From Sulfurospirillum arcachonense DSM 9755 (GTDB taxonomy: Bacteria; Campylobacterota; Campylobacteria; Campylobacterales; Sulfurospirillaceae): a DNA stretch of 64,000 nucleotides. The notes under the pieces are model-generated. The model was not told the DNA's origin. It saw nothing but the letters and a program-made list of their open reading frames with translations, and ran no database searches. The stretch spans positions 62,001 through 126,000 of the forward strand of contig NZ_JFBL01000002.1 in assembly GCF_000597725.1 (NCBI RefSeq), written 5' to 3'. Each line of letters opens with the position of its first letter. Positions within the stretch are counted from its first letter, which is position 1. Shown here piece by piece: positions 926 through 51,222 of the stretch. Position numbers and translations under genes: made by a program.

Positions 926-950
926 AAAGACGAGTTTTAGACTCGTCTTT
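926..950 (+). terminator. Stem-loop terminator after rpmA
   Basis: AAAGACGAGT (926-935) pairs with ACTCGTCTTT (941-950) around the five-base loop TTTAG, five bases after the rpmA stop. The 3' arm ends in only three T and is followed by CCCCC, so the U-tract is poor. It may work as a weak terminator or as a 3' end-stabilising hairpin. Confidence 0.65.
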
Positions 951-957
951 CCCCCTC

Positions 958-1001
958 AAATCTATCTACAATCCTTACATGTAAAGATTATAGATAGATT
1001 T
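958..1001. repeat. 44-bp near-perfect palindrome centred on TTACATGTAA
   Basis: The two halves 958-979 and 980-1001 are inverted copies of each other: 20 of 22 base pairs match (mismatches only 969/990 and 974/985) and there is no loop. The outer arms are AAATCTATCTA and TAGATAGATTT; the centre is TTACATGTAA at 975-984. It sits between the rpmA terminator and obg. It could be a large terminator hairpin, a protein-binding site or a cruciform-forming element. Confidence 0.75.
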
Positions 1002-3086: not shown

Positions 3087-4003
3087 TGAATATTGTTTTT
3101 ATGGGAACACCTGATTATGCAACAAAGATTTTAAAAGAACTTCTTACATGTAAAGATATAAAAGTTCCTTTACTTGTTACTCAGCCAGACAAACCAGTAG
3201 GAAGAAAACAAGTTTTAACGCCACCTCATACAAAAAATTATGCATTAACTAATTCAGTTGATATAGAAATTTACCAACCAAAAACTTTAAAAAGTGAAGA
3301 AGCATATGAGTATATAAACTCTTTTAAACCAGATTTTATTGTAGTAGCTGCATATGGTCAAATACTACCTAAGAGTATACTAGACATCGCTCCTTGTATC
3401 AATCTACATGCTTCATTGCTTCCTTCTTATCGTGGGGCTAGTCCTATTCAATCTTCACTGTTAAATGAAGATAAATTTGCAGGGGTTACTTCTATGCTTA
3501 TGGAAGAAGGGCTTGATACTGGAGATATATTAGGATTTACTTATCTTGAATTAGATGAGCATATGAAAGTAGATAAACTTTTTGAAACTCTTTCAGATAT
3601 GGCAGCAAAATTAACAATAAAAACATTAAAAAACTTTTCAATGATTGAGCCAATCAAACAAAAAAATGCAGATACTTCATACGCTGCTAAAATTAAAAAA
3701 TCTGATGGTTTAGTATCTTTTGAAAGAAATAGTGCAAGTGAGATTTATACAAAGTTTAGAGCATATGATCCATGGCCAGGACTATTTTTAGATTCGGGAT
3801 TAAAATTAAAAGATATAAAAGTAGTTGATATAAAAAATGGTAAAAATGCAGGTGAGATAATAAGCATAGATGAAAATGTTACCGTTACATGTAAAGAGGG
3901 TAGTTTGGCATTAAAGATGGTTCAAGCACCTTCTAAGAAACCTATGAGTGCAGTGGAATATATAAGAGGGAAAAGGTTAGACGTTGGAAATCAAGTGGTT
4001 TAA
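3086..4003 (+). CDS. fmt: Methionyl-tRNA formyltransferase
   Basis: Transfers a formyl group from 10-formyl-tetrahydrofolate to Met-tRNAfMet. It starts MNIVFMGTPDYA, has the substrate segment VTQPDKPVGRKQ, and the conserved NLHASLLPSYRGASPIQ that carries the catalytic Asn/His region of the formyltransferase fold. The C-terminal part (from about residue 205) is the OB-like tRNA-binding domain, with FRAYDPWPGLFL. The 305-residue length is normal. Its ATG shares one base with the proB stop, and its end overlaps the birA start by 20 bases. Confidence 0.95.
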
Positions 4004-4619
4004 GCATTTACCTTCAACACATAAATATCTTATAGAAAGTATAAAAAACCAATCTATAGTGGCTCCTTTAGCTGTTGGAGTAGACTTTCAAAGTGATGGC
4101 GTAGGAAGTAGAGGAAATTCTTGGCAAGGGGAAGAAGGAAATCTCTATTTTTCTTTTTGTGTAAAAGAGGAACATTTACCAAAAGATTTAAAATTAGAGT
4201 CAATTTCTATCTATTTTTCGTTTCTCATGAAAGAGGTTTTAGCCGAGTTAGACTCGGATATATGGATAAAATGGCCAAATGATTTTTATATAAAAAATAC
4301 AAAAGCAGGTGGAGTAATTACTACGAAAGTAAAAGACACTATTATTGGTTCAATTGGTATCAATATCCTCCATGCACCAGCGCAATTTGCTACTTTAGAT
4401 GTACAAATTGTACCTAAAAAATTAGTAGAACTTTTTATAAAAAAATTGAAAGAAAAAATTTCATGGAAGAATGTTTTTAGTAAATATAAGATAGAATTTC
4501 AAAATAGTCTTGGCTTTACCTTCCACTTAGAAGGTAAAAAATTATCATTATCTGATGCAAAGTTGTTAGATGATGGTTCAATTGAAATAGAAAACAAAAG
4601 GGTGTACAGTTTAAGATGA
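3984..4619 (+). CDS. birA: Biotin--protein ligase, catalytic domain only
   Basis: Activates biotin to biotinyl-AMP and attaches it to biotin carboxyl carrier protein; accD, a subunit of the same carboxylase, is in this window. The 211 residues cover the ligase domain only and lack the N-terminal helix-turn-helix of E. coli BirA, so it is not expected to repress genes. Visible motifs are VGSRGNSW (40-47, the biotinyl-AMP loop; the usual form is GRGRxGRxW), KWPND (96-100) and K107 in NTKAGGV. The loop is unusual: the first Arg is a Val/Gly. The start overlaps fmt and the stop overlaps parA (ATGAG). Confidence 0.88.
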   Translation: MEIKWFKHLPSTHKYLIESIKNQSIVAPLAVGVDFQSDGVGSRGNSWQGEEGNLYFSFCVKEEHLPKDLKLESISIYFSFLMKEVLAELDSDIWIKWPNDFYIKNTKAGGVITTKVKDTIIGSIGINILHAPAQFATLDVQIVPKKLVELFIKKLKEKISWKNVFSKYKIEFQNSLGFTFHLEGKKLSLSDAKLLDDGSIEIENKRVYSLR

Positions 4620-5401
4620 GTGAAATTATTGCTATAGCTAATCAAAAAGGTGGTGTTGGTAAAACAACGACTGCTGTGAATCTTGCTGCATCACTTGCTG
4701 TGGCAGAAAAAAGAGTTTTGCTGATAGATATCGATCCTCAATCAAATGCAACTACAGGTTTAGGTATTCATAGAAATGATTATGAGTATAATATCTATCA
4801 TGTACTAATAGGAAGAAAAAAACTTTCACAAGTCATTTTAGAAACATCTTTACCTACTTTACATATAGCACCATCAAATATTGGTTTAGTTGGTGTAGAA
4901 AAAGAGTTTTATGATGCTAAAACTAAAGGAAGAGAACTTATCTTAAAAAATAAAATTGAAGAGATAAAAGATCAGTATGATTATATTATCATTGATTCAC
5001 CTCCTGCATTAGGAAGCATTACTATCAATGCGCTTAGTGCTGCAAACTCTGTAATTATACCTATTCAGTGTGAGTTTTTTGCATTAGAGGGATTAGCACA
5101 ACTTTTAAATACTGTAAAACTTATTAAAAAAACAATTAATCCAAAATTAGATATTCGAGGTTTCTTACCAACGATGTATAGTACGCAGAACAATCTTTCA
5201 AAACAGGTTTTTGCAGATTTAAAACAACATTTTAAAAATAAACTATTTGTAGATGAAGAAACATCAAATTATGTAGTGATTCCAAGAAATATAAAACTTG
5301 CAGAATCTCCAAGTTTTGGAAAACCAATTATACTATATGATGTACAATCACCTGGTTCAAAAGCATATCAAAATTTAGCAAATTCAATATTAGTGAGCTA
5401 A
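4616..5401 (+). CDS. parA: ParA/Soj chromosome partitioning ATPase
   Basis: ATPase that moves ParB-parS complexes during chromosome segregation. It has the deviant Walker A KGGVGKTT (11-18), DIDPQSNATTGLG (Walker A' region), and IIDSPPALG (Walker B) about residues 124-132. The 261 residues and lack of an N-terminal helix-turn-helix mark the chromosomal type. ATG at 4616 overlaps the birA stop by four bases. It is followed 83 bases later by parB. No parS-like palindrome was seen in this window. Confidence 0.95.
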   Translation: MSEIIAIANQKGGVGKTTTAVNLAASLAVAEKRVLLIDIDPQSNATTGLGIHRNDYEYNIYHVLIGRKKLSQVILETSLPTLHIAPSNIGLVGVEKEFYDAKTKGRELILKNKIEEIKDQYDYIIIDSPPALGSITINALSAANSVIIPIQCEFFALEGLAQLLNTVKLIKKTINPKLDIRGFLPTMYSTQNNLSKQVFADLKQHFKNKLFVDEETSNYVVIPRNIKLAESPSFGKPIILYDVQSPGSKAYQNLANSILVS

Positions 5402-5445
5402 TCCATGATAAATTCTATGCAGAGCATTAGCTTTAGTGAAAGGAA

Positions 5446-5472
5446 TTTTTATTGGACTTCGTTCAATAAAAA
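5446..5472 (+). promoter_or_regulatory. Strong stem-loop abutting the parB ribosome binding site
   Basis: An 11-base stem, TTTTTATTGGA (5446-5456) with TTCAATAAAAA (5462-5472), closes the loop CTTCG; one G-U pair. AAGGAG overlaps its end (5471-5476). It is the strongest of the hairpins that precede a Shine-Dalgarno here. It could set the ParA:ParB ratio or be an RNase processing point; this is inference. Confidence 0.5.
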
Positions 5473-5484
5473 GGAGATAATTAA

Positions 5485-6339
5485 GTGAGTGCAAAAAAAG
5501 CTTTAGGAAGAGGGTTAGGTGCAATTTTTGAAGATGTTGAAGATGCTTATAATCAAGATTTAAATAACGCTCAAGATTTAGTAAGAGATATAGATGTAAA
5601 TAGAATTTCTCCAAATCCATACCAACCAAGAAAATATTTTAATGAAAGTGCCATTAAAGAGCTTAGCGAATCTATTAAAAAACATGGATTATTACAACCT
5701 ATTATTGTTGTCGAAAAAGACAATGATTATATGTTGCTTGCTGGTGAGAGAAGATTTCGTGCTACTAAAAAAGCTGGATTAGAAACGATAAGAGCCATTG
5801 TCGCAGATATCGAATCTGAAAATTTAAGAGAATTAGCTCTTATAGAAAATATTCAAAGAGAAGATTTAAATCCAATAGAATTAGCAATTGCTTATAAAGA
5901 GTTAATCGAAGAGTATAATATTACTCAAGAAGGACTTTCAGAAGTTGTTAAAAAAAGTCGTACACAAATAACAAATACTTTAAGACTTCTGAGTTTAACT
6001 GAAAAAACACAAAAGTTAGTGGTAGAAGGTAAATTATCTCAAGGACATGCTAAAGTTGTTGTAGGATTGGATTCAAATGATGAGCAAACTGTTGTAAATA
6101 CTATCTTAGGACAAAAACTAAGTGTTAGAGAAACAGAACAACTTGTAAAAAAAATAAAAAATACAGAACAAAAAAGTGATATTTCAAAAAATAAACAGAT
6201 AAAAGAAACTTTAGAGTTCACATCTTTAGAAAAACGCTTAAATAGTTTTGGATTAAAAACTAAAACAAAAGCGCACTCAATCACAATCGAATTTGAAAAT
6301 AGCGAATCAATTGATCAATTTTTAGAAAAAATTAAATAA
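5485..6339 (+). CDS. parB: ParB/Spo0J chromosome partitioning protein
   Basis: CTPase and parS-binding protein that loads ParA cargo. It starts with GTG at 5485 (SAKKALGRGLGAIF, typical of ParB) behind AAGGAG; no ATG is in reach. The ParB/Srx domain has NPYQPRKYF, IVVEKDNDYMLLAGERRFRA (the GERRxRA CTP-binding box at about residues 89-95) and ENIQREDLNPIE. The central helix-turn-helix is around VVKKSRTQITNTLRLLSL. The 284-residue length is normal. It forms one unit with parA, although the space between them holds a strong hairpin. Confidence 0.95.
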   Translation: MSAKKALGRGLGAIFEDVEDAYNQDLNNAQDLVRDIDVNRISPNPYQPRKYFNESAIKELSESIKKHGLLQPIIVVEKDNDYMLLAGERRFRATKKAGLETIRAIVADIESENLRELALIENIQREDLNPIELAIAYKELIEEYNITQEGLSEVVKKSRTQITNTLRLLSLTEKTQKLVVEGKLSQGHAKVVVGLDSNDEQTVVNTILGQKLSVRETEQLVKKIKNTEQKSDISKNKQIKETLEFTSLEKRLNSFGLKTKTKAHSITIEFENSESIDQFLEKIK

Positions 6340-6370
6340 TTCTTCTTAGTTTAATAAAGATTTTTACTTA

Positions 6371-6384
6371 ATTATGTTAAAATC
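6371..6384 (+). promoter_or_regulatory. Probable promoter of the ATP synthase operon
   Basis: TTATGTTAAAATCC, with -10 box TAAAAT at 6378-6383, lies 87 bases before atpF'. The same TTATGNTAAAAT core occurs before slyD, the 51.3-kb operon and others in this window. Confidence 0.55.
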
Positions 6385-6470
6385 CGCACAATTTTAGTTA
6401 TGTCTGCTTAATAAGATATAACTAAATTGGTGGTTATTAATGAGTCATACCTAGTTAAAGGAGCAAAAAC

Positions 6471-6893
6471 ATGTTGGACATTAGCCCAATACTTTTGCTG
6501 GTAACGGGATTTGTGTTTTTCTTCTTATTAATTGTACTTAATAAGATACTTTATAAACCGCTTTTGCAATTCATTGACAATAGAAATGAATCTATCAAAC
6601 GCGATTTAGAAAATGCAGGTAAAAATACCAGTGATGTTGAGGCTTACTACAAAGAGGCGGATCAAATTATCCATGACGCGAAAGCAGAAGCGGGAAAAAT
6701 TAGAGAAGCAGCTTTAAGTGAAGCAAGAGAGATTGCCGCAAAAAAAGTTGAACAAAAGCATAGTGAACTTGAAGAAGAGTACACAGCGTTTTTAAAAGAC
6801 TTAGATGCGGAAAAAACAGAATTTCAAGAAAACTTGAGTGCTAAGATACCTCTTTTTAGAGATAGCATCAAGCAAAAACTTGGCAATATATAG
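6471..6893 (+). CDS. atpF': ATP synthase Fo subunit b'
   Basis: Peripheral-stalk subunit. An N-terminal membrane helix (about residues 5-27, ISPILLLVTGFVFFFLLIV) is followed by a long charged helix rich in A, E, K and Q that forms the coiled coil. 140 residues. The next gene encodes a second b-type subunit, so the stalk is probably a b/b' heterodimer as in cyanobacteria and other Campylobacterota. It is separated from parB by 131 bases with its own promoter and starts behind AAAGGAG. Confidence 0.9.
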   Translation: MLDISPILLLVTGFVFFFLLIVLNKILYKPLLQFIDNRNESIKRDLENAGKNTSDVEAYYKEADQIIHDAKAEAGKIREAALSEAREIAAKKVEQKHSELEEEYTAFLKDLDAEKTEFQENLSAKIPLFRDSIKQKLGNI

Positions 6894-6901
6894 GAGCTTG
6901 G

Positions 6902-7417
6902 ATGAAAATTAGATATATATTACTCTTATTAGCACCAGCACTATTGTTGGCAAATGGTGGCGGTGAAGGTGAAGGAACTGATATTCTTCCTAGAGCTGTT
7001 AACTTTGTTATATTCGCTTCTATCCTTTATTATCTTTTAGCAGATCATGTTAAAATAGCATATAAAGGTAGAATAGCAGGCATTGCAGATAGATTAGATT
7101 CAATACAGGTCAAAGTAAAAGAATCATTGAATGCAAAAGAAGCAGCGCAAGCAAAAGTCGAAGAGGCAAAAGCAAATGCTAAATCATTAATTGAAACTTC
7201 TAAGAGAGAAGCACAACTTCTTTCAGAAAAAGTAGCAAGTGATGTAAATAGTGAACTTTTAAGTCTAGAAAAAGGTTTTCAAGAAAAAATCGAAATTGAA
7301 AGACGTAAGATGGCTCGTGCTGTTGTTACTAGTGTTTTAGATGAGATGTTTGATGAAGATTCAGTTTCTTTAGATAAAGAAGAGCTTGTGAAGATTGTAA
7401 TGAAGAAGGTTGCATAA
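6902..7417 (+). CDS. atpF: ATP synthase Fo subunit b
   Basis: Second peripheral-stalk subunit, 171 residues. It has an N-terminal hydrophobic, signal-like stretch (KIRYILLLLAPALLLANG), a Gly/Glu-rich linker and a second membrane helix (NFVIFASILYYLLA, about 35-48), then a long helical domain with many A, E and K. The extra N-terminal hydrophobic segment, possibly cleaved after LLA, is a feature of epsilon-type b subunits. It starts eight bases after atpF' and its stop overlaps the atpH start by one base (TAATG). Confidence 0.9.
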   Translation: MKIRYILLLLAPALLLANGGGEGEGTDILPRAVNFVIFASILYYLLADHVKIAYKGRIAGIADRLDSIQVKVKESLNAKEAAQAKVEEAKANAKSLIETSKREAQLLSEKVASDVNSELLSLEKGFQEKIEIERRKMARAVVTSVLDEMFDEDSVSLDKEELVKIVMKKVA

Positions 7418-7947
7418 TGAAAGGGATTATCGCAAAAAAATATGTAAATGCTTTAATTAAAAGTTGTAGTGATGCTGAAATCATTTCAGTTGAAAATGCT
7501 ATTAACGAATTAGCGACAGCATTTAGTTCTACAAAATTTAACAATATAATACTCTCTCCTGACTTTAGTAGTGAGAAAAAAGAGGAATTTGTTTTATCTT
7601 TGTTAGAAAAAAGCGAAGGAAAAATTTTAAATCTTGTAAAGTTACTAGCGCTAAATGATCGTTTAGCTCTTATACCTGTAATTGCAAAAGAGTTAAAATA
7701 TCAAACTTCACTAAAAAGTAATTCTTTTGAAGGTGAAGTAGTCAGTAACTTTGAAATTGGCAAAGAGCAAATTACTAAATTAGAAGAGAATTTTAGTAAA
7801 AAATTCAGTGCAAATATCAAGTTAAATAATGTGGTAAGTGATTATCCTGGGGTAAAAATCCAGCTAGACGATTTGGGTGTTGAAGTTAGTTTTTCATTAG
7901 ACAGACTAAAAACTCAAATGGTAGAGCACATTTTAAAAGCAATCTAG
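7417..7947 (+). CDS. atpH: ATP synthase F1 subunit delta
   Basis: Joins the peripheral stalk to the top of F1. The 176 residues begin MKGIIAKKYVNALI, the classic delta opening (KRYAxAL). The middle has FVLSLLEKSEGKILNLVKLLALNDRLALIP, corresponding to the conserved NFLxLLxENxRLxxLP region, here in two halves of one helix-turn. It is coupled to atpF by a one-base overlap and is followed by a 106-base gap with stem-loops before atpA. Confidence 0.92.
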   Translation: MKGIIAKKYVNALIKSCSDAEIISVENAINELATAFSSTKFNNIILSPDFSSEKKEEFVLSLLEKSEGKILNLVKLLALNDRLALIPVIAKELKYQTSLKSNSFEGEVVSNFEIGKEQITKLEENFSKKFSANIKLNNVVSDYPGVKIQLDDLGVEVSFSLDRLKTQMVEHILKAI

Positions 7948-7960
7948 AAAGATTTTCTCT

Positions 7961-8014
7961 GTGAAGCATTAGCTTCGATGAGATGAAATTAACTTGGAAG
8001 AAATTCTGAGTTAA
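7961..8014 (+). promoter_or_regulatory. Stem-loops in the atpH-atpA gap
   Basis: GAAGC (7963-7967) pairs with GCTTC (7972-7976) around ATTA, and TTAACT (7989-7994) pairs with AGTTAA (8009-8014). This is the largest gap inside the ATP synthase cluster. The hairpins could allow mRNA processing so that the alpha and beta subunits, needed three per complex, are made in excess. The function is inference. Confidence 0.35.
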
Positions 8015-8053
8015 ATAAGAAATTTAATAAAAAAGTATGGTAAGGAGCAATTT

Positions 8054-9571
8054 GTGGGAGCAAAAATGAAAGCTGACGAGATCAGTTCAATCATTAAAGA
8101 ACGCATTGATAACTTCGAACTCAACGTTGATGTCGAAGAGACGGGTAAAGTTATTTCAGCTGCAGATGGTATTGCAAATGTTTATGGTTTAAACAACGTA
8201 ATGGCTGGTGAAATGGTTGAGTTTGAAAATGGTGAAAGAGGTATGGCACTTAACTTAGAAGAGTCAAGTGTTGGTGTTGTTGTACTTGGTAGTAGTAATG
8301 ATATCAAAGAAGGAACATCAGTTAAAAGATTAGGAAGACTACTTCGTGTTCCTGTTGGTGATGCACTAATAGGACGTGTTGTAAATTCTCTTGGTGATCC
8401 AATTGACTCAAAAGGTCCAATTGAAGCAACTGAGAGTAGATTTGTTGAAGAAAAAGCACATGGAATTATGGCAAGAAAGTCAGTTCATGAGCCACTTCAA
8501 ACAGGTCTTAAAGCGATTGATGCACTTGTACCAATTGGTAGAGGTCAAAGAGAGCTTATTATTGGTGATAGACAAACAGGTAAAACTACAGTTGCAATCG
8601 ATACAATTATTAACCAAAAAGGTCAAGATGTTGTATGTATTTATGTTGCGATTGGTCAAAAACAATCAACAGTAGCACAAGTTGTTAAAAAACTTGAAGA
8701 GCATGGAGCAATGGATTATACTATCATTGTAAATGCTGGTGCTTCTGATTCAGCTGCATTACAATACTTAGCACCATATGCTGGTGTTGCTATGGGTGAA
8801 TATTTTAGAGATAATTCACGTCATGGACTTATTGTATATGATGATTTATCTAAACATGCTGTTGCATATCGTGAAATGTCACTTATTCTTAGACGTCCTC
8901 CAGGTCGTGAAGCATATCCTGGTGATGTTTTCTATCTTCACTCAAGACTTCTTGAGAGAGCTGCAAAAGTAAATGATGAGTTAGGTGGAGGTTCACTTAC
9001 AGCTCTTCCTATTATTGAAACACAAGCTGGTGACGTTTCTGCGTATATTCCAACAAATGTTATTTCAATTACAGATGGTCAGATTTTCTTAGAATCAGAT
9101 TTATTTAACTCAGGTATTCGCCCGGCAATTAACGTTGGTCTTTCAGTATCTCGTGTTGGTGGTTCTGCTCAAATTAAAGCTACAAAACAAGTTGCTGGTA
9201 CACTTAGACTTGATCTTGCTCAATATCGTGAGCTTCAAGCGTTTGCACAATTTGCAAGTGATCTTGATGAATCAAGTAGAAAACAACTTGAGCGTGGTGA
9301 GAGAATGGTAGAAATACTTAAACAAGCTCAGTACTCTCCGCTTCCTGTTGAAAAACAAGTTACTATTATTTATGCTGGTGCAAGAGGTTTTCTTGATGAT
9401 ATTGAAGCAAATGAAGTAACACGTTTTGAAGCTGAGTTATATCCATTTATAGAAGCTAAGTACCCTGAAATTCTTGAACAAATTAGAAGCAAACAAAAAT
9501 TAGATAAAGAAGTTGAAGATCTATTAGCTAAAGCATTGAATGAGTTTAAAGCAACGTTTGCAGTAAAGTAA
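8054..9571 (+). CDS. atpA: ATP synthase F1 subunit alpha
   Basis: Non-catalytic nucleotide-binding subunit of F1, 505 residues, full length. The P-loop GDRQTGKTT is near residue 171, followed by the family segments [14 protein letters not shown] (here [12 protein letters not shown]), and [17 protein letters not shown] near 355. Two starts are possible: GTG 8054 ([10 protein letters not shown], with AAGGAG upstream) and ATG 8066 (with GGGAG inside the first codons). I chose the GTG because family members in related bacteria usually begin MxAKxxADEI, which is from memory. Confidence 0.97.
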
Positions 9572-9581
9572 GGATTAGACA

Positions 9582-10466
9582 ATGTCAAATCTTAAAGAGA
9601 TAAAAAGAAAAATCAAGAGTGTTGAGAACACTAAGAAAACAACAAGAGCAATGAAATTGGTTTCAACTGCGAAACTAAATCGTGCAAAATTGGCTGCACA
9701 ACAGTCAAGAGTGTACGCAGATAAAATTAATGAAGTTTTGTCTGAAATTGCTTATAAAATTAACCAATATAAAATTGGTGGAATTGAGAGTCGTTTTTTT
9801 GATGAGATTAGTGCTCCTGAAAAAGTAGATATTGTTTTTGTTACTGCAGATAAAGGTTTATGTGGTGGTTTTAATATTCAAACTATTAAAGCTGTTAGTA
9901 AACTTATGGAAGAGTATAAAGACAAGAAAGTTAAAGTGCGTTTGAGAGGTGTTGGAAAAAAAGGTATGGCCTTTTTTAAATTTCAAGACATTGAACTTCA
10001 TTCTGAATATGCAGGTGTAAGTTCAGCACCAACATATGAAAAAGCTCAAGAAATTATATCTGAAGCTATTGATGATTTTACAGCTGGAGTAACTGATAAA
10101 GTTATTTTAGTTCACAATGGTTATAAGAATATGATCGCACAAGAGTTAAAGATAAATAGTATTGTTCCGGTAAGTCCTCCAGTTGATTTTGAATCAAATT
10201 CAGAATCATTAATGGAACTAGAGCCTGAAGAAGATGAAACTATCTTAGAGTCTTTAATGAAAAAATATTTTGAATACAATATGTATTATTCACTTATTGA
10301 TTCATTAGCAGCTGAGCACAGTGCAAGAATGCAAGCTATGGAAAACGCAACTAACAATGCAACTGATAGAGTTAATTTGTTAACACTAGCATATAATAAA
10401 GCTAGACAAGAGAGTATCACTACTGAGTTAATTGAGATTATCAGTGGTGTGGAATCAATGAAATAA
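9582..10466 (+). CDS. atpG: ATP synthase F1 subunit gamma
   Basis: Central rotor shaft of F1. The N-terminal helix begins [28 protein letters not shown] in family style, the central part has [11 protein letters not shown] (about 87-97), and the C-terminal helix has [30 protein letters not shown], ending the shaft, in which MxxAxxNA is the family signature. The 294 residues are normal length. It lies ten bases after atpA and 33 before atpD. Confidence 0.96.
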
Positions 10467-11920
<1,454 letters not shown>

Positions 11921-11929
11921 GGGAATAAA

Positions 11930-12322
11930 ATGGATACATTAAAATTAGAAATTGTAACTCCAGAGGGCCAAATCTTTTCAAATGATGTAAAAGATGTAAC
12001 TCTTCCAGGTAGTGAAGGTGAGTTTGGAGTTTATCCAGGCCACGCTTCACTGGTTTCTTTGTTACAAGCTGGTGTAATTGATATCGAATTAGGCGATGGA
12101 AAACACGAAATTGTTGCGATTAATTGGGGTCATGCAAAAGTTGATGAAAACTCTGTTACAGTTCTAGCAGATGGAGCTGTTTCAGTAGGTGGTAATAGTG
12201 AAGGTGAAATTGCTCGATCTCTTGAAAATGCTCAAAAGCTAATCGAGAGTATGAGTGATTCAGATGTTGCTATTGCAACTGCAACTGCGAAGATTGAATC
12301 TATCGCAAAATCAGGGAGATAA
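11930..12322 (+). CDS. atpC: ATP synthase F1 subunit epsilon
   Basis: Rotor subunit and ATPase inhibitor of F1, 130 residues. It opens MDTLKLEIVTPEGQIFSNDV and has the beta-sandwich signature LPGSEGEFGVYPGHASLVSLLQAG, typical of the family (LPGxxGxFGVLPGHAPL). The C-terminal helical domain is present. It ends the ATP synthase cluster; genes for the membrane subunits a (atpB) and c (atpE) are not in this window, as expected for Campylobacterota, where they lie elsewhere. tolQ follows ten bases after the stop. Confidence 0.94.
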   Translation: MDTLKLEIVTPEGQIFSNDVKDVTLPGSEGEFGVYPGHASLVSLLQAGVIDIELGDGKHEIVAINWGHAKVDENSVTVLADGAVSVGGNSEGEIARSLENAQKLIESMSDSDVAIATATAKIESIAKSGR

Positions 12323-12331
12323 GTGTAATAG

Positions 12332-12934
12332 ATGGAAGGCATAGATATACTTTTAAACTACCTCAGTAGAAGTAGTTTTGTTACTTTTTTTGTATTAGGA
12401 TGGTTATCGATATATATTATTGTTACTTTTGGAGTCCTATTTAGTAGATATATGTACCTTTCAAATTGGCTTTCTCGTGAAAAACAATCATTAGAAGCTA
12501 TGCTTATGGGTGCTAAAAATGTTAGAAATGATTCAATATTGAAAAAATGTTCTAGCAAATTTGGCACAAATGAAAAACTTTTAAATGTTTGTAAAAGTGT
12601 AGCTGAAAAAAATGCAACACAAAATTTGTGGATGTTATCTATGATAGCATCTACATCTCCTTTTATTGGACTTTTTGGAACTGTTGTATCAATTCTTGAA
12701 ACATTTAGTGGATTAGGGCAAGGTGAAGGTGGAGCATCTCTTAGTATAATAGCTCCTGCAATTAGTGAAGCTTTAATAGCAACTGCAGCTGGAATATTTG
12801 TAGCAATTCCCGCTTATAGTGCAAATCTTTTTATTAAAAGAAAAGCTTATGAAGTTGTTACTTATATTCATAGAGAAGCAGAATTGTTACTCTCTATAAG
12901 TGATAATAAAGAAAAAGAAACTCAAGATGTATGA
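12332..12934 (+). CDS. tolQ: MotA/TolQ/ExbB family proton channel protein (TolQ)
   Basis: Inner-membrane proton-channel subunit that, with TolR, energises TolA. The 200 residues hold three membrane helices: about 14-38, then a cytoplasmic loop, then 107-128 (IASTSPFIGLFGTVVSILETF) and 143-165 (ISEALIATAAGIFVAIPAY), the family hallmark. The following tolR, tolA, tolB, pal and cpoB fix the identity as TolQ rather than ExbB. ATG at 12332; the stop overlaps tolR by eight bases. Confidence 0.9.
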   Translation: MEGIDILLNYLSRSSFVTFFVLGWLSIYIIVTFGVLFSRYMYLSNWLSREKQSLEAMLMGAKNVRNDSILKKCSSKFGTNEKLLNVCKSVAEKNATQNLWMLSMIASTSPFIGLFGTVVSILETFSGLGQGEGGASLSIIAPAISEALIATAAGIFVAIPAYSANLFIKRKAYEVVTYIHREAELLLSISDNKEKETQDV

Positions 12935-13319
12935 TTGGGAAGAAACTCCTGATTTAAATATAACACCATTAGTAGATATTATGCTAGTTTTGTTAGCAAT
13001 ACTAATGGTAACTACACCAGCATTGGTTTATGAAGAGAAAATTAATCTTCCAGATGGAACAAAATCACACGTAGTACAAAAAATCCCAGAAATTGAATTA
13101 CGTATTACTAAAAACAGAAAAGTTTATTATAAAAATAGTAGTTTTACTATGAGTGAATTTCCTGATAATTTTGTTTTGATAAGTCAAAAACACCCATTAG
13201 ATACAACTATAGTATACATTAAAGCAGATGAATCACTACAGTATAAGGATGTTATGTTTGTATTAAAAAGTGTAAAAGAAGTAGGTTTCACAAAAGTTTC
13301 ATTAGAAACCAACGGGTAA
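12927..13319 (+). CDS. tolR: ExbD/TolR family protein
   Basis: Partner of TolQ. It has one N-terminal membrane helix with the protonatable Asp in LNITPLVDIMLVLLAILMV (Asp about residue 17) and a periplasmic domain. I set the start at ATG 12927 (MYDWEETPD), which gives 131 residues; a longer reading from 12900 would add a basic stretch inside tolQ and is less likely. The eight-base overlap with tolQ suggests coupled translation. Confidence 0.9.
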   Translation: MYDWEETPDLNITPLVDIMLVLLAILMVTTPALVYEEKINLPDGTKSHVVQKIPEIELRITKNRKVYYKNSSFTMSEFPDNFVLISQKHPLDTTIVYIKADESLQYKDVMFVLKSVKEVGFTKVSLETNG

Positions 13320-13322
13320 TTA

Positions 13323-14084
13323 ATGCCTAGTACTTCAAACTCCAGTATAGTGGGATGGACACTATCTTTTATTCTCTATTTTATTTTTTTATCAATAGGT
13401 ATATATGTACTTCAAAGCCATAATATAAAAAATCAAAAATATACAGCAAGCAAAAAAAATCTTTTAAATGTAACGTTGGTAGATAGAAAAAACAAAAAAA
13501 CTATTAAAAAGAAAAAACAAAAAGTTGTAAAGAAAAAAAATACAGTTGATAAACCAAAACCAGTTGAAAAGAAAAAAACTATTAGATCTACAAAGAAAGC
13601 GTCAATACCAAAAACAGATTTGAGCAAACTTTTTGGAAAAATTGATGTAGATAAAATTCCTGAAGAGACTCAAAAAAGAAAAAAAGAGATAAGAAAAAAG
13701 ATTGTAAAAAAAGAAATAGAAGAAGTAGAAAAAGTAGATAAAGCAAAAAACATTACAAAACATTTAGAATTTGATCAGCAAGAAAACTTAGTGATAACTC
13801 AAAAAGATGGTATATATGATGAATTTAGAGGTAAAATATCTGACATATTAGATAGTAATTGGCAACAAACAATCAATACAGTTTCAGGTAATAAAGCAGA
13901 TGTTATTATAAGTATAGATAAATTAGGAAATTTTAGTTATAAAATAGAAACTTTGTCATATAATGATGCTTTTAATGCAAAACTTCGAAATTTTCTCGAA
14001 GAGATGCGTGATGTTAGATTTCCACCTTTTACAAAAGGTGAAATATTTAATATGAAAGTAGTTTTCAAAGACATATTGGAGTAA
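13323..14084 (+). CDS. tolA: TolA-like / TonB C-terminal domain protein
   Basis: Links the inner-membrane TolQR motor to TolB/Pal across the periplasm. One N-terminal membrane helix (about 11-29, WTLSFILYFIFLSIGIYVL) is followed by a very Lys-rich region (about 40-145, many KKK and EE runs) and a C-terminal domain (about 165-253) that resembles the TonB/TolA C-terminal fold (DSNWQQTINTV, VIISIDKLGNFSYKIE, FPPF). Sequence alone is weak; its position between tolR and tolB decides the name. It starts three bases after tolR. Confidence 0.82.
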   Translation: MPSTSNSSIVGWTLSFILYFIFLSIGIYVLQSHNIKNQKYTASKKNLLNVTLVDRKNKKTIKKKKQKVVKKKNTVDKPKPVEKKKTIRSTKKASIPKTDLSKLFGKIDVDKIPEETQKRKKEIRKKIVKKEIEEVEKVDKAKNITKHLEFDQQENLVITQKDGIYDEFRGKISDILDSNWQQTINTVSGNKADVIISIDKLGNFSYKIETLSYNDAFNAKLRNFLEEMRDVRFPPFTKGEIFNMKVVFKDILE

Positions 14085-14090
14085 GTAAAA

Positions 14091-15362
14091 ATGATTAAAA
14101 AAATATTAATGATAGTTCTAGTTAGCTGTTCTCTTTTTGCATATGATGCAACTGTTGAGATAGTAAAGAAAATGGATAAATTGCCAAAAATAGCATTACA
14201 AGATGCTAGCGAATCTAGTGTAGATCTTTCTTTTAGAAAAAAGTTTTTTAAAATATTGGTAGGTGATTTAAGAGTAAGTAGTCATTTTAATGTAGTAGAT
14301 GAATATTTACAAAGCTCTTATAAAGGAAATCTTGAAGAGAATTTTTTAAATGAATTAAATTTAGATTTGATATTGAGATACAGGATTTTATTTGAATATG
14401 ATGGTATTGTAATTGCTGAAGTTAAAGTAATTAATGCAAAAACAGGTCAAGTTGATAGTGAAAGAACATACAAAATATCAAAGCATAATAGATATCCACT
14501 TTTAGCTCATAATATAGCAGTAGAATTAAATGCAAAAATAGGAGCTCCTAGTATAAAATGGATGGATCAGTATGTGATCTTTGCAAAATATATAGGCAGT
14601 AAAAAAAGTGAAATTATCATATCTGACTATACATTAAGTTTTCAACAAACAGTTGTAAAGGGTGGGCTTAATATTTTTCCTAAGTGGGCAAATAAAGCAC
14701 AAAATGCATTTTACTATACATCATATAATGGAAACAAACCAACATTATATAAAGTAGATGTAAGAAGCGGAAAACGAAAAAGAATACTTTCAAGTCCAGG
14801 TATGTTAGTTTGTTCAGATGTATCAGCTGATGGAGACAAACTTTTATTAACAATGGCACCAAATGATCAAGCAGATATTTATGTATATGATATAAATAGA
14901 AAAAATTTAGAAAAAATAACATCATATAGTGGTATAGATGTAAATGGTAATTTTATTGATAATGATAAAAGGGTAGTGTTTGTTTCAGATAGGCTAGGTT
15001 ATCCTAATATATTTGCACAACAAATAGGAAGTAGAAGTGTTGAACAAATGGTTTATCATGGAAAAAATAATAATTCAGTTTCTGCAATTGATAATTATAT
15101 AGTTTATTCTAGTAGAGAAAAATCTAGTGAATTTGGTCCAAAAACTTTTAATCTTTATCTTATTTCAACAAAGACGGATTATATTCGTCAACTTACTGCA
15201 ACAGGTAAAAATCTTTATCCAAGGTTTGCAGATGATTCAGAAACAATTATGTTTATTAAATATTATAATAATCAAAGTGCTTTAGGTTTAATAAGGTTAA
15301 ATGCAAATAAAAGTTATCATTTTCCTTTAAAAGTGGGAAAAATACAGTCTATTGATTGGTAA
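14091..15362 (+). CDS. tolB: Tol-Pal system beta-propeller protein TolB
   Basis: Periplasmic protein that binds Pal and TolA. The signal peptide is MIKKILMIVLVSCSLFA, with cleavage probably before YDATVE. The N-terminal domain (to about 150) is followed by WD40-like propeller repeats: FPKWANKAQNAFYYTSYNG, SPGMLVCSDVSADGDKLLLTM, and LYPRFADDSETIMFIKY. 423 residues, near the family length. It is six bases after tolA. Confidence 0.93.
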   Translation: MIKKILMIVLVSCSLFAYDATVEIVKKMDKLPKIALQDASESSVDLSFRKKFFKILVGDLRVSSHFNVVDEYLQSSYKGNLEENFLNELNLDLILRYRILFEYDGIVIAEVKVINAKTGQVDSERTYKISKHNRYPLLAHNIAVELNAKIGAPSIKWMDQYVIFAKYIGSKKSEIIISDYTLSFQQTVVKGGLNIFPKWANKAQNAFYYTSYNGNKPTLYKVDVRSGKRKRILSSPGMLVCSDVSADGDKLLLTMAPNDQADIYVYDINRKNLEKITSYSGIDVNGNFIDNDKRVVFVSDRLGYPNIFAQQIGSRSVEQMVYHGKNNNSVSAIDNYIVYSSREKSSEFGPKTFNLYLISTKTDYIRQLTATGKNLYPRFADDSETIMFIKYYNNQSALGLIRLNANKSYHFPLKVGKIQSIDW

Positions 15363-15370
15363 TTTAAGAA

Positions 15371-15384
15371 AAAGATGATAAACT
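15371..15384 (+). promoter_or_regulatory. Possible promoter before pal
   Basis: AAAGATGATAAACT has a TGATAAACT core like the TTATGATAAAAT promoters elsewhere here; the -10 box would be TAAACT (15379-15384), 33 bases before the pal start. It would allow Pal to be made above the level of TolB. Confidence 0.35.
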
Positions 15385-15416
15385 AACGACAAATTAATAC
15401 AAATAAAGGGGTAGAG

Positions 15417-15974
15417 ATGAAAAAAATATTGCTTATTAGCTTAACGATTGCTATGTTTATTTTTAGTGGATGTAGTCAAAAAAATCCAGAGGTTGATGCA
15501 ACGAGTAATTCTTCAGGAGTAAGTACTGCTGATAAAAAAGCTGATGATATTTCAGGTATGGATACTGATAAAATGGCTTCTAATGGTATGTCAAAAAATG
15601 CAACTGCAGTAGAAAAAGCAATAGCAAAACTTGAGTCAAATGTAAATAAGATTTATTTTGATTTTGATAAATATGACATTCGTCCTGATATGAAAAGTAA
15701 AATAGAAGCAAACGCTGTTCTTTTAACTACAATGGATGCTAAAAACTTTTCAATCAAAGTAGAAGGAAATTGTGATGAATGGGGTACTGATGAGTATAAC
15801 TATGCATTAGGATTAAAAAGAGCTAAAAGCGTAAAAGAATCTTTAGCAGCTTATGGTGTTGATAAAGAGCGTATAATGGTAGTTAGTTTTGGTGAGAGTA
15901 ACCCAACATGTAAAGAGAGTAATAAAGCTTGTTGGAATCAAAATAGAAGAGCAGAATTTAAGCTTTTACCATAA
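15417..15974 (+). CDS. pal: Peptidoglycan-associated lipoprotein Pal
   Basis: Outer-membrane lipoprotein that binds peptidoglycan. Signal peptide with lipobox FSGC (acylated Cys about residue 19), a Ser/Ala/Lys-rich linker, and an OmpA-like domain (about 75-185) with VNKIYFDFDKYDIRPDM, VEGNCDEWGTDEYNYALG and LKRAKSVKESL, then NRRAEFK near the end. 185 residues. It starts behind AAAGGGG and is the fifth gene of the Tol-Pal block. Confidence 0.95.
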   Translation: MKKILLISLTIAMFIFSGCSQKNPEVDATSNSSGVSTADKKADDISGMDTDKMASNGMSKNATAVEKAIAKLESNVNKIYFDFDKYDIRPDMKSKIEANAVLLTTMDAKNFSIKVEGNCDEWGTDEYNYALGLKRAKSVKESLAAYGVDKERIMVVSFGESNPTCKESNKACWNQNRRAEFKLLP

Positions 15975-15986
15975 TAAAACCTTTCA

Positions 15987-16889
15987 ATGAAAAAAATTAG
16001 TATAATATGGCTAATAGCGATTAATTCGCTATTAGCTTCTGAACCTTCTGCATATGGTGCTGGTAATTTAGATAGTGCTAATCCTTATGGCTTGACTTCA
16101 AGTGAGAAGTATATTCTTAAAAACAAAGAAAAAGTAAAAAATTTAGCACAAGGTGTTGGTAGTGTAAAAATTCAATTATCTCAGATAAATGAAAATTATG
16201 AAGGACTACGCTCAGTCATCGAATCATTTGGTTCTAAAATATCTAAAATTGATCAAAGATTGAGAAATCTTGATGAAAATGATAAATCAATGGGTGATTC
16301 ATTTGCAACTTTACAACAAGAAGTTACTGATTTGAAAGAATATGTAAACGAAAGTAGACAACTTCAAGATACTAATCAAGAAAAAATCAAGTTAGTACTT
16401 GGAGAATTAAGTTCCCTCATAGACTCAATAAATAATAATTATGTTTCAAAAGAATCTTTTTTAGCACTTGAAAATAGAGTAAAGAACATAGAATCTAAAA
16501 TGGAACAAAAAGCAAGTATAAAAAAAGTTGCTGCAGTTTCTAAAAAAAGTGGTGCAGAGCTTCTTAAAGAAGGAATGAGTTTTTTTAAGAAAAAATCTTA
16601 TAATGAGTCAAAAATAAGATTTACTAAACTTCTTGAAAAAGGATATAAACCAGCAAGAAGTAACTATTTTTTAGGTGAAATTGCATATTTTCAAAATTCG
16701 TATAAAACTGCTATTAAACATTACAAAAAAAGTATATCTTTATACGATAAGGCTGATTATATTCCTACGCTTCTATATCATACGGGGATATCTTTTAGTA
16801 AGTTAAAAGAAAATAATCAAGCAAAACAATTTTTTGATGCCTTAAAACAAGGTTATCCAAATTCGAAAGAAGCTAAATCTTTGAACTAA
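15987..16889 (+). CDS. cpoB: Tol-Pal system protein CpoB (YbgF-like)
   Basis: Periplasmic coordinator of the Tol-Pal system and cell-wall synthesis. Signal peptide MKKISIIWLIAINSLLA, a coiled-coil region (about 45-180: many leucine heptads such as IKIDQRLRNLDEN) and a C-terminal TPR part from about 195 (GAELLKEGMSFFKKKSYNESKIRF, then ARSNYFLGEIAYFQNSYKTAIKHYKKS). 300 residues, of normal length. It follows pal by 12 bases without a good Shine-Dalgarno sequence. Confidence 0.88.
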   Translation: MKKISIIWLIAINSLLASEPSAYGAGNLDSANPYGLTSSEKYILKNKEKVKNLAQGVGSVKIQLSQINENYEGLRSVIESFGSKISKIDQRLRNLDENDKSMGDSFATLQQEVTDLKEYVNESRQLQDTNQEKIKLVLGELSSLIDSINNNYVSKESFLALENRVKNIESKMEQKASIKKVAAVSKKSGAELLKEGMSFFKKKSYNESKIRFTKLLEKGYKPARSNYFLGEIAYFQNSYKTAIKHYKKSISLYDKADYIPTLLYHTGISFSKLKENNQAKQFFDALKQGYPNSKEAKSLN

Positions 16890-16906
16890 GAGTTCATAAA
16901 TACTCA

Positions 16907-16920
16907 TTATGGTATAATCC
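16907..16920 (+). promoter_or_regulatory. Probable slyD promoter
   Basis: TTATGGTATAATCC, with TATAAT (16913-16918), lies 31 bases before the slyD start. It is among the best matches in the window to the local pattern TTATGNTAAAATCC. Confidence 0.65.
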
Positions 16921-16949
16921 TTCGTTTTAAATAAACAAGGAGAAACTTT

Positions 16950-17549
16950 ATGGCAATAATTGACAATCAAGTCGTTTCAATTAATTATGAATTGAAAGAT
17001 GTTGCTAGTGGAGAAGTTATAGATAGTAATCTAGAGGCTGCTCCATTATCATTTATCGTAGGTAAAGGCCAAATAATACCTGGTCTAGAAAACGAGATAA
17101 AAAATTTATCGCAAGGTGATACTGCTGACATTAATGTATCTGCAAAAGATGGATATGGTGAATATGATGATTCAGCAATACAATCTCTTCCTAAAGAACA
17201 ATTTGCAGGATTAGAATTAACTGAAGGTATGACTCTTTACGGACAAGGTGAAGATGGTGGTACGGTTCAAGTAGTAGTTAAAAGCTTTGATGAAGAACAA
17301 GTTCATGTAGATTTTAATCACCCATTAGCAGGAAAAGATTTACTTTTTTCAATTAGTATTACAGAAGTACGTGAAGCTACTGAAGAAGAGTTAGCTAACG
17401 GATTTGTTGGTGCTCCTGCAGGTGGAGGATGTGGATGTGGTTCTAGCGCTGGTGATAGTTGTTGTTCTACTGACAAAGCAGATGATCATGAGTGTTGTGG
17501 TGGTGAACATCACGAAAAAGATGGTAGTGGATGTTGTGGATCACACTAG
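16950..17549 (+). CDS. slyD: FKBP-type peptidyl-prolyl isomerase SlyD
   Basis: Prolyl isomerase, chaperone and metal-binding protein. The FKBP part starts INYELKDVASGEVIDSN, with SFIVGKGQIIPGLE (the LxFxxGxGxLIPGLE signature) and the inserted-in-flap domain around DGYGEYDD; VDFNHPLAGKDLLF is also typical. From about residue 158 the tail is rich in Cys, His, Gly and Asp (CGCG, CC, HECCGGEHHEKD), suited to Ni2+ or Zn2+ binding. 199 residues. ATG 16950 follows AAGGAG. The last codons overlap the next gene's start. Confidence 0.95.
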   Translation: MAIIDNQVVSINYELKDVASGEVIDSNLEAAPLSFIVGKGQIIPGLENEIKNLSQGDTADINVSAKDGYGEYDDSAIQSLPKEQFAGLELTEGMTLYGQGEDGGTVQVVVKSFDEEQVHVDFNHPLAGKDLLFSISITEVREATEEELANGFVGAPAGGGCGCGSSAGDSCCSTDKADDHECCGGEHHEKDGSGCCGSH

Positions 17550-18306
17550 TTATATAGCCAAATCAAGAGCCTCATTAGAGGCTCTTAAATCGGCTAATCT
17601 TTTAAAAAGTCTTAATCTTAGTGCTCTTATTTTAGGTGAGAGTGGAACTGGAAAACAGACTCTAGCAAAGTTTATACTTCCTGAGGCCAATATAGTTGAT
17701 GCTGATGGTGATATTCAAGAATTACTTGCATTTATAGATATTTCTGATACGCTTATTATAAAAAATTTTGATAAAATAAATAATTATCCAAAAGTAAAAT
17801 CAGCAATAGAATTAAATAATACAAGAGTTATTGCAACTTCAAAAGTTGAATTATCAGAAAAAGTTTCTGATGATTTTTTTAGTCTTAAAATAACTCTTTC
17901 TCCATTGTCTCAAAGAGAAGAAGATATTTTACCACTTGCACAAAAGTTTTTTGAAGAAGTATCGGGATTTTTTGGAAATGAGAATAGTAATGATATATCT
18001 TTAAAAGATTTAAATTTTGATTTATCAAATAATTGTTACTCACTGAGAAAATCTGTTTATCTTAAATATCTTGTGAATTCACTAAGTGAAGAAGGTGTGA
18101 TGGATGTTATGGAAGAGTTTTTATTAAAAAAACTTGGTGGAAGAAATGATTATAGAGAACAGCTTTATCTTTTTGATGTTCCTATGTTAAGAAGTGGTTT
18201 TAAAAAGTTTCATTCACAACTTAATATGAGTGAAAAATTTGGCCTCAATAGAAATACTCTTAGAAAAAAAATCAATGACTACAAAGATAAATATAAATTA
18301 AATTAG
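17536..18306 (+). CDS. NtrC-like AAA protein without GAFTGA loop, Fis-type HTH
   Basis: Reduced relative of sigma-54 activators. With GTG 17536 as start it has 256 residues (MDHTSYIAKSRASLEA). It shows a Walker A of the NtrC type (ALILGESGTGKQTLAKFIL, about 30-48), a remnant of the sensor region (TRVIATSKVEL, then LSPLSQREEDILPLAQKFFEE), and a C-terminal Fis-like helix-turn-helix (LNMSEKFGLNRNTLRKKINDY). The GAFTGA segment that contacts sigma-54 and a clear Walker B DE are absent, so it probably does not activate sigma-54. A longer reading from 17404 lies inside slyD and is not believed. The start overlaps slyD by 14 bases. Confidence 0.72.
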   Translation: MDHTSYIAKSRASLEALKSANLLKSLNLSALILGESGTGKQTLAKFILPEANIVDADGDIQELLAFIDISDTLIIKNFDKINNYPKVKSAIELNNTRVIATSKVELSEKVSDDFFSLKITLSPLSQREEDILPLAQKFFEEVSGFFGNENSNDISLKDLNFDLSNNCYSLRKSVYLKYLVNSLSEEGVMDVMEEFLLKKLGGRNDYREQLYLFDVPMLRSGFKKFHSQLNMSEKFGLNRNTLRKKINDYKDKYKLN

Positions 18307-18316
18307 GACCATATAT

Positions 18317-19243
18317 ATGAAAAAAAATATTTTTATTTTTCCAGGACAAGGAAGTCAAAACTTTGGTATGGGAAAAGATTTTTATGATAACGATGCACTT
18401 GCACGTGAAATGATAGATAAAGCAAGCCAAAGATTAGATTTAGATTTTACTAAACTTTTATTTGAAGAAAATGATAGGCTTGAACTTACCGAGTTTACTC
18501 AACCTGCAATTTTGCTAGTAAGTACAGTTGCTCACGCACTTTTTATAAAAAGTTATAAAGAAGCACCATTAATGGCATTGGGACATTCTCTTGGAGAGTT
18601 TTCTGCACTTAGTGCTGTTGGTGCAATTGATTATTTAGATGCCGTAGAGTTAGTTCATAAACGTGGACTTTTTATGAAAGAAGCTTGTGAAAATATCAAT
18701 GCTGGTATGATGGCACTTATTGGGTTAAGTGATGATAAAGTAGAAGATATTACAACTGCACAAAGAGAATTAGGTAAAAAAGTATGGGCTGCAAATTATA
18801 ACTGTGATGGACAAATCGTAGTTGCTGGTGATAAAGATGATTTAGCTTCTTTAGAAAATACTTTTAAAGAAGAGGGTGCAAAAAGAGCATTACTTTTAAA
18901 TATGTCTGTTGCAAGTCATTGCCCTCTTTTACAAAGTGCTATTGCTCCTTTAGGAGAGTATCTTAATAACTTTATAAAAGATGATTTTTTAGCTCCAGTA
19001 GTATCCAATGTAACAGCTAATTTATATAGTTCTAAAAAAGAAGCATTAGAGCTTTTATCTAACCAGCTAATAAAACCGGTGAAATATAAACAATCAATAG
19101 AAAACGTAGAAGCTAATGCTGATAGATTTATTGAATTTGGTGCAACAGTTTTAAAAGGTTTAAATAGACGTTCAACAAAAAAACCAACACTATGTATAAC
19201 TGATATGGAAAGTTTAGAAAAGGTATTAAGCGAATTATCATGA
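18317..19243 (+). CDS. fabD: Malonyl CoA-acyl carrier protein transacylase
   Basis: Moves malonyl from CoA to ACP in fatty-acid synthesis. It begins FIFPGQGSQNFGMGKDF, has the nucleophile elbow GHSLGEFSA (Ser91), the Gln in TQPAILLVS and the catalytic His in SVASHCPLL. 308 residues, normal length. It starts 11 bases after the NtrC-like gene and its stop overlaps the next start (ATGA). Confidence 0.96.
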   Translation: MKKNIFIFPGQGSQNFGMGKDFYDNDALAREMIDKASQRLDLDFTKLLFEENDRLELTEFTQPAILLVSTVAHALFIKSYKEAPLMALGHSLGEFSALSAVGAIDYLDAVELVHKRGLFMKEACENINAGMMALIGLSDDKVEDITTAQRELGKKVWAANYNCDGQIVVAGDKDDLASLENTFKEEGAKRALLLNMSVASHCPLLQSAIAPLGEYLNNFIKDDFLAPVVSNVTANLYSSKKEALELLSNQLIKPVKYKQSIENVEANADRFIEFGATVLKGLNRRSTKKPTLCITDMESLEKVLSELS

Positions 19244-19995
19244 ATATAACACTTGTTCAAAATACTCCAAAACTAAAAAAAATGAGCTTTGATAAGTTTC
19301 AAGAAGAACTTCAAAAAATTGATGGTGATTTAATTGTTTTTCCTGAATTAGCTTTAAATGGATATTTGTTAAAAGATGCTGTTTTTGAAGATGCTTATAG
19401 TTTAGAAGAAATCGAAAAATTTGCAACATTGAGTACAAAACAAGACATTGTTTTTGGTTGTGTTTTAAAGTGTGATCATAAAATATATAATAGTGCAGTA
19501 TATTGTAGTGGTGGAAAAGTATTACATGTACATCACAAAAATATTTTGCCAAATTATGGACTTTTTCAAGAAGCTCGTTTCTTTTTTGAAGGAGAAGAGT
19601 TAAAAAGTTTTGAAACAAATTATGGTGAAGTGATGGTTGTAATTTGTGAAGAGATGTTTTCAGCAAAAGTAATAGAACAAATTGCTGCAACAAAACCACA
19701 GCTTGTTATTGTTCTTTCTAATTCACCTGCTCGTGGTTTTGAAGATGATAAACTTTTAATTGAGCATCAATGGAATTCTCTTTTAAGTACAAGTGCAATT
19801 CTCTCAGGAGCAAATGTAGTATTTGTTAATCGAGTAGGATTTGAAGATGGACTTGGTTTTTGGGGTGGCAGTCGTCATATAAATCCAAAAGGCGAAATTA
19901 TAAAAAAAGCAAAACTTTTTGAAAATGAACTTTTACATGTAGAGATAGATAAACATATCTCTAAAACACAAAAATATTTATTGAGGATAAAATAA
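19240..19995 (+). CDS. Carbon-nitrogen hydrolase (nitrilase superfamily)
   Basis: Amidase of the nitrilase fold with the catalytic triad visible: E36 in FPELALNGY, K100 in HHKNILPNYG and C136 in VVICEEMF. The 251 residues are a single domain; there is no NAD-synthetase domain, so it is not the long NadE. The substrate cannot be told from sequence; nitrilase-related proteins without partner domain act on small amides or as omega-amidases. It overlaps fabD by four bases and mtnN by one base, so the three are one translational unit. Confidence 0.85.
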   Translation: MNITLVQNTPKLKKMSFDKFQEELQKIDGDLIVFPELALNGYLLKDAVFEDAYSLEEIEKFATLSTKQDIVFGCVLKCDHKIYNSAVYCSGGKVLHVHHKNILPNYGLFQEARFFFEGEELKSFETNYGEVMVVICEEMFSAKVIEQIAATKPQLVIVLSNSPARGFEDDKLLIEHQWNSLLSTSAILSGANVVFVNRVGFEDGLGFWGGSRHINPKGEIIKKAKLFENELLHVEIDKHISKTQKYLLRIK

Positions 19996-29711: not shown

Positions 29712-30272
29712 ATGAAATTGTATGCGCTTTTAGATTATGAGAGTTTAGTCAAAAAAAAGTGGACAATAGAAAAATTTGTTTCTACATGTAACACATTACA
29801 TGTAGAAATGATTCAATATCGTGATAAAAAAGGAAATATACAAAGAAAAATAGATAACCTCATAAAATTAAAATTTCTTTGTGATATGAAAGTGATAATA
29901 AACGATGAAATTGATTTAGTGAATTTTTGTGATGGATTACATGTTGGACAGAGTGATTTGAGAAAAATAGACTCAGATGTAAAAGAAGCTATTAAAGTGA
30001 TAAGGCAGAAAATAGGAAAAAAAGTTTTAGGAATTTCAACTCATAATAAGGAAGAAATTTTAGAAGCAAATGAACTTGATATTGATTATATAGGATTGGG
30101 AGCTTATAGAACTACAAGTACAAAAAGTGATGCAAACGTTTTAAAAGAGAGCCTCAGTGATTTGGCAAGACTTTCTTTTAAACCGGTTGGTGCAATCGGT
30201 GGAGTTAAAGTGGATGATGAGATTGTTGGTGTTACATATGCTGTTGTAGGAAGTGATGTATATGAATATTAA
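29712..30272 (+). CDS. ThiE/TenI family protein
   Basis: TIM-barrel protein of the thiamine phosphate synthase family. MIQYRDKKGN (about 33-42) matches the LRxK/RxK pyrophosphate region, IINDEIDL the substrate Asp region, GLHVGQSDL the Mg2+ loop, IDYIGLGAYRTTSTK the phosphate site, and PVGAIGGV the last barrel strand. At 186 residues it is shorter than ThiE (about 210) and may be TenI or a shortened ThiE. Start three bases after accD; end overlaps rlmH by 11 bases. Confidence 0.75.
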   Translation: MKLYALLDYESLVKKKWTIEKFVSTCNTLHVEMIQYRDKKGNIQRKIDNLIKLKFLCDMKVIINDEIDLVNFCDGLHVGQSDLRKIDSDVKEAIKVIRQKIGKKVLGISTHNKEEILEANELDIDYIGLGAYRTTSTKSDANVLKESLSDLARLSFKPVGAIGGVKVDDEIVGVTYAVVGSDVYEY

Positions 30273-46329: not shown

Positions 46330-46330
46330 T

Positions 46331-46366
46331 TTATAAGAGGGATTTTCCCTCTTATAAGTTTTTTAA
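46331..46366 (+). terminator. Rho-independent terminator after the antiporter-like gene
   Basis: TTATAAGAGGG (46331-46341) pairs perfectly with CCCTCTTATAA (46347-46357) around ATTTT, then G and TTTTTT. It starts one base after the stop codon. The TRAP permease gene converges on it and ends at 46363, so the U-tract encodes the last bases of that gene on the other strand. Confidence 0.88.
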
Positions 46367-48159: not shown

Positions 48160-48167
48160 ATTTACGG

Positions 48168-49121: not shown

Positions 49122-49149
49122 AATCCATCTCCTAATTTTAAGTTTTAAG

Positions 49150-49155
49150 ATTATA
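49150..49155 (-). promoter_or_regulatory. -10 box of the TAXI-TRAP operon
   Basis: TGCTATAATC on the minus strand, with TATAAT the complement of 49150-49155 and an extended TGC. It decides the start of the binding-protein gene at 49121. Confidence 0.6.
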
Positions 49156-51195: not shown

Positions 51196-51222
51196 ATTTA
51201 CCTCTTAAAATATTTATATAGG

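Follow-up and report, generated by a model that had tools for sequence, protein, structure and literature searches.

A hairpin of conserved pairing between rpmA and obg of Sulfurospirillum arcachonense carries a genome-wide palindromic word at its centre

Intercistronic hairpins in messenger RNA, which serve as RNase III sites or as stabilizers, consist of a long stem located between genes of one operon. The cyanobacterial HIP1 (GCGATCGC) and its alternates are, as outlined in Elhai 2015 (PMC4390886), short palindromes present in hundreds to more than 1000 copies per genome, located both within genes and outside them; their flank preferences are symmetric, and related genomes have alternate spellings. 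The DNA uptake sequences, DUS in Neisseriaceae and USS in Pasteurellaceae, are presented in PMC3630211 as dialects built around a constant core, with inverted pairs near gene ends. A 44-bp palindrome between rpmA and obg of S. arcachonense DSM 9755 combines two superimposed features that can be compared with these systems, the arms of a conserved hairpin and a genome-wide word at their centre. The predicted hairpin is like the intercistronic ones in that a long stem lies between genes; unlike known intercistronic RNAs, it matches no known RNA family (no Rfam match at the gathering score in 8 loci). The word, TTACATGTAA with the core TACATGTA, appears to resemble both HIP1 and the uptake sequences. 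It is like HIP1, as characterized in PMC4390886, in copy number, placement inside and outside genes, symmetry and alternate spellings, and unlike it in being AT-rich, in belonging to Campylobacterota and in forming close pairs at gene ends. With DUS and USS, in the account of PMC3630211, it shares dialects, a core that stays constant and inverted pairs close to gene ends, but its motif is symmetric and its flanks vary independently.

The palindrome (AAATCTATCTACAATCCTTACATGTAAAGATTATAGATAGATTT) occupies positions 958–1001, with no strand assigned, of the window, which is the whole 64,000-nucleotide stretch of DNA that was analysed. It has 44 bases, no loop and 20 of 22 possible pairs. When 150 sequences of 64 kb were simulated with the dinucleotide make-up of the window, their zero-loop palindromes reached at most 18 of 22 pairs, so that the structure singled out in a preliminary description is real. 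As that description had stated, it lies right after the rpmA hairpin, starting 7 bases past a stem-loop at 926–950 (+ strand; AAAGACGAG-TTTTAGA-CTCGTCTTT, with no T run after it). The start of obg (1155–2276, + strand; named from its sequence and the gene order) is 153 bases past the end of the palindrome, which is thus located in the untranslated stretch preceding this gene. The shape had been judged unusual for a terminator, and this held: no intrinsic terminator-like site was called at 880–1200 and no T run flanks the palindrome on either side, which speaks against a terminator made of a G+C-rich stem and a T run. The genome has a single occurrence of the extended sequence (a 40-mer, allowing up to 3 mismatches), and the rpmA–obg spacer had no match in the plasmid collection. 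The remaining 400 kb sampled of the same genome contain one zero-loop palindrome reaching 20 of 22 pairs (L153:12022), a perfect 42-bp palindrome at L153:12022–12063 (contig C2) composed of CTTCGTTCTATTTTTAGATTA and its mirror; it is located between two reading frames and lacks the TACATGTA word. Similar hairpin-like words (AGGAATTTAnTTC...) are present at 1081–1115 and 2291–2330 of the window, in the spacers that precede obg and the gene after it. The pattern matches only these two places in 464 kb, and kin of these words were recognized by eye in the spacers of G039 and G041. There are parA/parB-like genes nearby, and a chromosome dimer-resolution or parS site was considered; it was not retained, since the arms differ in sequence from species to species.

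The rpmA–obg spacers of the Sulfurospirillum-like family were surveyed with 20 shuffles per spacer; one of the 44 genomes yielded no rpmA, and 43 spacers were compared. Of the 33 spacers from the genera g1, g3, g4 and g5, 26 have a best palindrome past the rpmA stem-loop that was superior to every one of the 20 shuffles (5/6, 1/1, 17/23 and 3/3, respectively). Four of the other seven stood at 1 of 20 shuffles and three were no better (G037, G022 and G026). In 21 of the 23 g4 genomes the hairpin ends 20–30 bases away from where obg starts, and no comparable palindrome was called in the remaining two (G022 and G026). All shuffles were beaten in 3 of 10 spacers of g2, two of them by a different hairpin further downstream. 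The usual hairpin is missing from the spacers of G004 and G009 (L136 and L135), which have a different palindrome of 25 pairs (CACCTCTAATAATAGG...) further downstream. Palindromes above all 20 shuffles were found in Sulfurimonas-type spacers too (L025, L027, L028, L030, L032 and L037).

Nine genomes of g1, g3 and g5 with a common geometry were aligned, omitting G037, in which no hairpin was found. In this alignment 91.9% of the cells are paired, a value favoured by the selection of the arms as best palindromes ahead of the alignment, and changes on both sides are seen at 10 of 20 pairs. Covariation amounted to 0.444, against 0.212 ± 0.031 in shuffled alignments and 0.075–0.141 in a sliding control, and the RNAalifold energy was −15.26 kcal/mol, of which −3.08 corresponded to covariation. 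Arms fitted their own partners (0.834) better than the partners from other species (0.637), and arm-partner permutations as good were obtained in 1 of 20000 trials, or 5 of 20000 without two near-duplicates, figures that are inflated, as in all the shuffle tests, by kinship among the sequences. The pairing is therefore kept through compensatory changes, as in structured RNAs, and the palindrome represents, in this species, a hairpin preceding obg that evolves fast but is conserved in structure. Conservation of the outer arms and the existence of other extended copies had been proposed as checks; as judged from the alignment, the arms are conserved across species as complementarity but not as sequence, and there was no second extended copy. 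A hairpin model, R1, matched this place alone in its own genome. Under strict filters it matched 4 of 199 order genomes and missed the g4 hairpins, and it therefore traces the element no further than close kin. Two more R1 matches (G155 and G221) are located elsewhere, one of them upstream of a fabD-like gene (named by eye).

The centre of the palindrome at 975–984 (no strand assigned) is one of 567 exact genome copies of TTACATGTAA, and the sequence around it, CTTACATGTAAAG, fits the wider motif consensus. The same pattern read backwards, used as a control, is present 3 times in the genome. The window contains 11 copies (0.22 expected), and the 464 kb sampled, 17% of the genome, contain 103 (1.66 expected). 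This is an over-representation of a palindromic word of the HIP type, and the earlier view of the centre as something read by a protein stood to the extent that TTACATGTAA is a real genome-wide word. Copies per genome range from 6 to 1496 across the 44 family genomes, this one included, and two members of the same genus have 1496 (G017) and 49 (G021). Of the 298 genomes drawn in a survey of the order, 29 belong to the Sulfurospirillum-like family and 269 lie outside it. Ten copies or fewer were counted in 264 of the latter, and the other five, all from one other family, have 367 (G139), 340 (G160), 96 (G210), 48 (G190) and 31 (G229). The hundreds of copies in G160 and G139 (family f17), most relatives of which have 10 or fewer, look like a sporadic gain. 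Two stretches of the window of about 16 kb each, 3886–19523 and 45407–61634, are devoid of TACATGTA, while the sample average is about one per 2.3 kb. The 8-mers AAAAAGAG/CTCTTTTT rank in the top six by over-representation in 11 of the 12 family genomes sampled, also where the palindrome is absent, and were counted 271 times in S. arcachonense against 76 expected.

The 8-base core TACATGTA was found 205 times in the 464-kb sample and its mirror, ATGTACAT, 14 times; with AAG behind, the core was counted 133 times and the commonest one-off core 6 times. AAG flanks both sides at 20 of the 205 sites, one side at 93 and neither at 92, where 21.6, 89.9 and 93.6 were expected. The flank on one side does not depend on that on the other, and the site is therefore symmetric. 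Simple ORF calls, which make up 90% of the sequence, wholly contain 156 of the 205 sites (76%). Neighbour pairs of the motif spaced 14–24 bases apart number 12 in 464 kb against about 1.0 expected; they are mostly near ORF ends, and AAG points inward at 19 of their 24 sides and outward at 5. One of the 12 is the inverted pair at 29779–29808 of the window (no strand assigned), with a spacing of 14 bases. Smaller samples of other genomes have few close pairs, 0 to 6 within 60 bases. With its lineage-specific spellings the word extends through most of the family; they include CTACATGTAGAG in G002, G003 and G008, and CTTACATGTAAG followed by C or G in G043 and G022. In G010 it is TATCATGATA that abounds, with 166 copies, where the other 43 genomes have at most 39, and the sample of G021 had no excess of the word.

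Inverted pairs at gene ends, as in uptake sequences, are thus found with the TACATGTA motif; a directional (non-palindromic) motif is not, the core being palindromic and its flanks independent. ComEC is encoded in 41 of 44 family genomes, with and without the motif and including G021 and G010, and the loss of competence genes was rejected as the cause of motif-poor genomes. HIP words are linked with a methyltransferase that recognizes an inner sequence; the S. arcachonense genome has two C5 methylase (PF00145) genes and gave no match to MethyltransfD12 (PF02086) or N6_N4_Mtase (PF01555). A tentative possibility is that TACATGTA and its spellings (TTACATGTAAAG, CTACATGTAGAG, CTTACATGTAAG and perhaps TATCATGATA) serve one Campylobacterota family as a word of self-recognition, in a dialect-bearing system of the DNA-uptake or HIP-like kind. 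Copies of it might have been recruited as gene-end hairpins and, in the present case, to form the tip of the hairpin in the obg leader. Searches of the open-licence literature on uptake sequences, iterated palindromes and Sulfurospirillum found no description of such a word in Campylobacterota; titles and abstract openings yielded no mention of TTACATGTAA or TACATGTA as genome words, and no report of a hairpin in the rpmA/obg/rplU operon was found in that literature.

The preliminary description had suggested that the palindrome, with its outer arms, might be bound strongly by the protein reading TTACATGTAA. A strong site of this kind, for a protein or an enzyme, would agree with the centre, which does fit the genome-wide motif. 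However, long arms are confined to this one of the 103 sampled TTACATGTAA sites, with 15 of 17 flanking positions paired where the next best has 10, the relatives re-spell the arms, and the reading is therefore unsupported. In addition, TACATGTA is present in 21 of 43 spacers (g1 4/6, g4 16/23, g5 1/3, g2 0/10 and g3 0/1), and G040, G042, G043 and G011 keep the hairpin with a centre other than TTACATGTAA; the hairpin centre is free to vary, and a strong site for a reader of the word is very improbable. A plain back-up terminator or a mere relic, that is, an additional stem-loop downstream of rpmA that has no separate role, would agree with the location directly after the rpmA stem-loop and with the close motif pairs at gene ends elsewhere. 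The lack of a T run and of any called terminator-like site speaks against the former, and pairing conserved across genera is unexpected for a relic, which makes this alternative unlikely, if less so than the strong site.

The main rival is a DNA operator, at which a dimeric regulator of obg would bind the double strand; pairing would be kept because both half-sites have to match the protein. The nine genomes pair in 149 of 163 cells as RNA of the + strand and in 135 of 163 as RNA of the minus strand; their mismatch cells comprise 16 G-U and 2 C-A, or 9 G-U and 2 C-A when distinct columns are counted (one-sided binomial of about 0.03 by our own arithmetic), and both C-A belong to the window's own species. 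Since most of the residual mismatches of the relatives are G-U when read on the sense strand, the likeliest form is an RNA hairpin within the rpmA–obg messenger. The two mismatches of the window palindrome speak against the sense strand. Both are C-A on the + strand and hence G-U on the minus strand, which for this reason folds better as RNA (−25.8 against −13.9 kcal/mol). g4 has a weak strand bias (distinct column events: 8 G-U, 6 C-A), and G-T and C-A mismatches are about equal over all family hairpins (55 against 52 cells, summed). These two C-A mismatches and the even balance are as expected of a DNA site, and the loopless form of the window copy and the recurrence across genera of a symmetric right-arm core (TATARRTA-like) are likewise in favour of an operator. 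Nonetheless, the arm sequence drifts, with the both-sided changes already described, and the genome has no further copy at up to 3 mismatches. The distance from the centre to the shared core varies from 9 to 9.5 in g1, g3 and g5 to about 13 in g4, which counts against an operator because a rigid dimer site should not allow it. We consider an operator rather improbable, although the least so of these alternatives, and with moderate confidence favour a sense-strand RNA hairpin on this comparison of sequences.

The explanation that we prefer, with a probability of roughly 55%, is that the arms form an RNA hairpin for processing or stabilization at the rpmA–obg junction and that the centre is a copy of the iterated word settled at its tip. 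The arms would be the local form of the stem-loop conserved at this junction in the Sulfurospirillum-like family, probably acting as RNA in the sense transcript, with the abundant rplU–rpmA message on one side and the obg part on the other. From what is generally known of such stems, one of about 20 pairs placed after a ribosomal-protein message and before a GTPase gene suggests a processing (RNase III-type) or stabilizing element, by which the expression of obg may be set apart from that of the ribosomal-protein genes. The centre would be a member of the iterated palindrome with core TACATGTA, which may have settled at the tip because a palindrome there keeps the pairing intact.

Few bacterial groups are known to have iterated palindromes or uptake sequences, and how these arose is debated. 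In this family, genomes with about 1500 copies of the word, with 49 or with other spellings can be compared directly, a natural experiment in which presence, respelling and near loss are found inside a single genus. The hairpin that carries the word here offers a small, testable example of a leader structure preceding obg, a GTPase gene.
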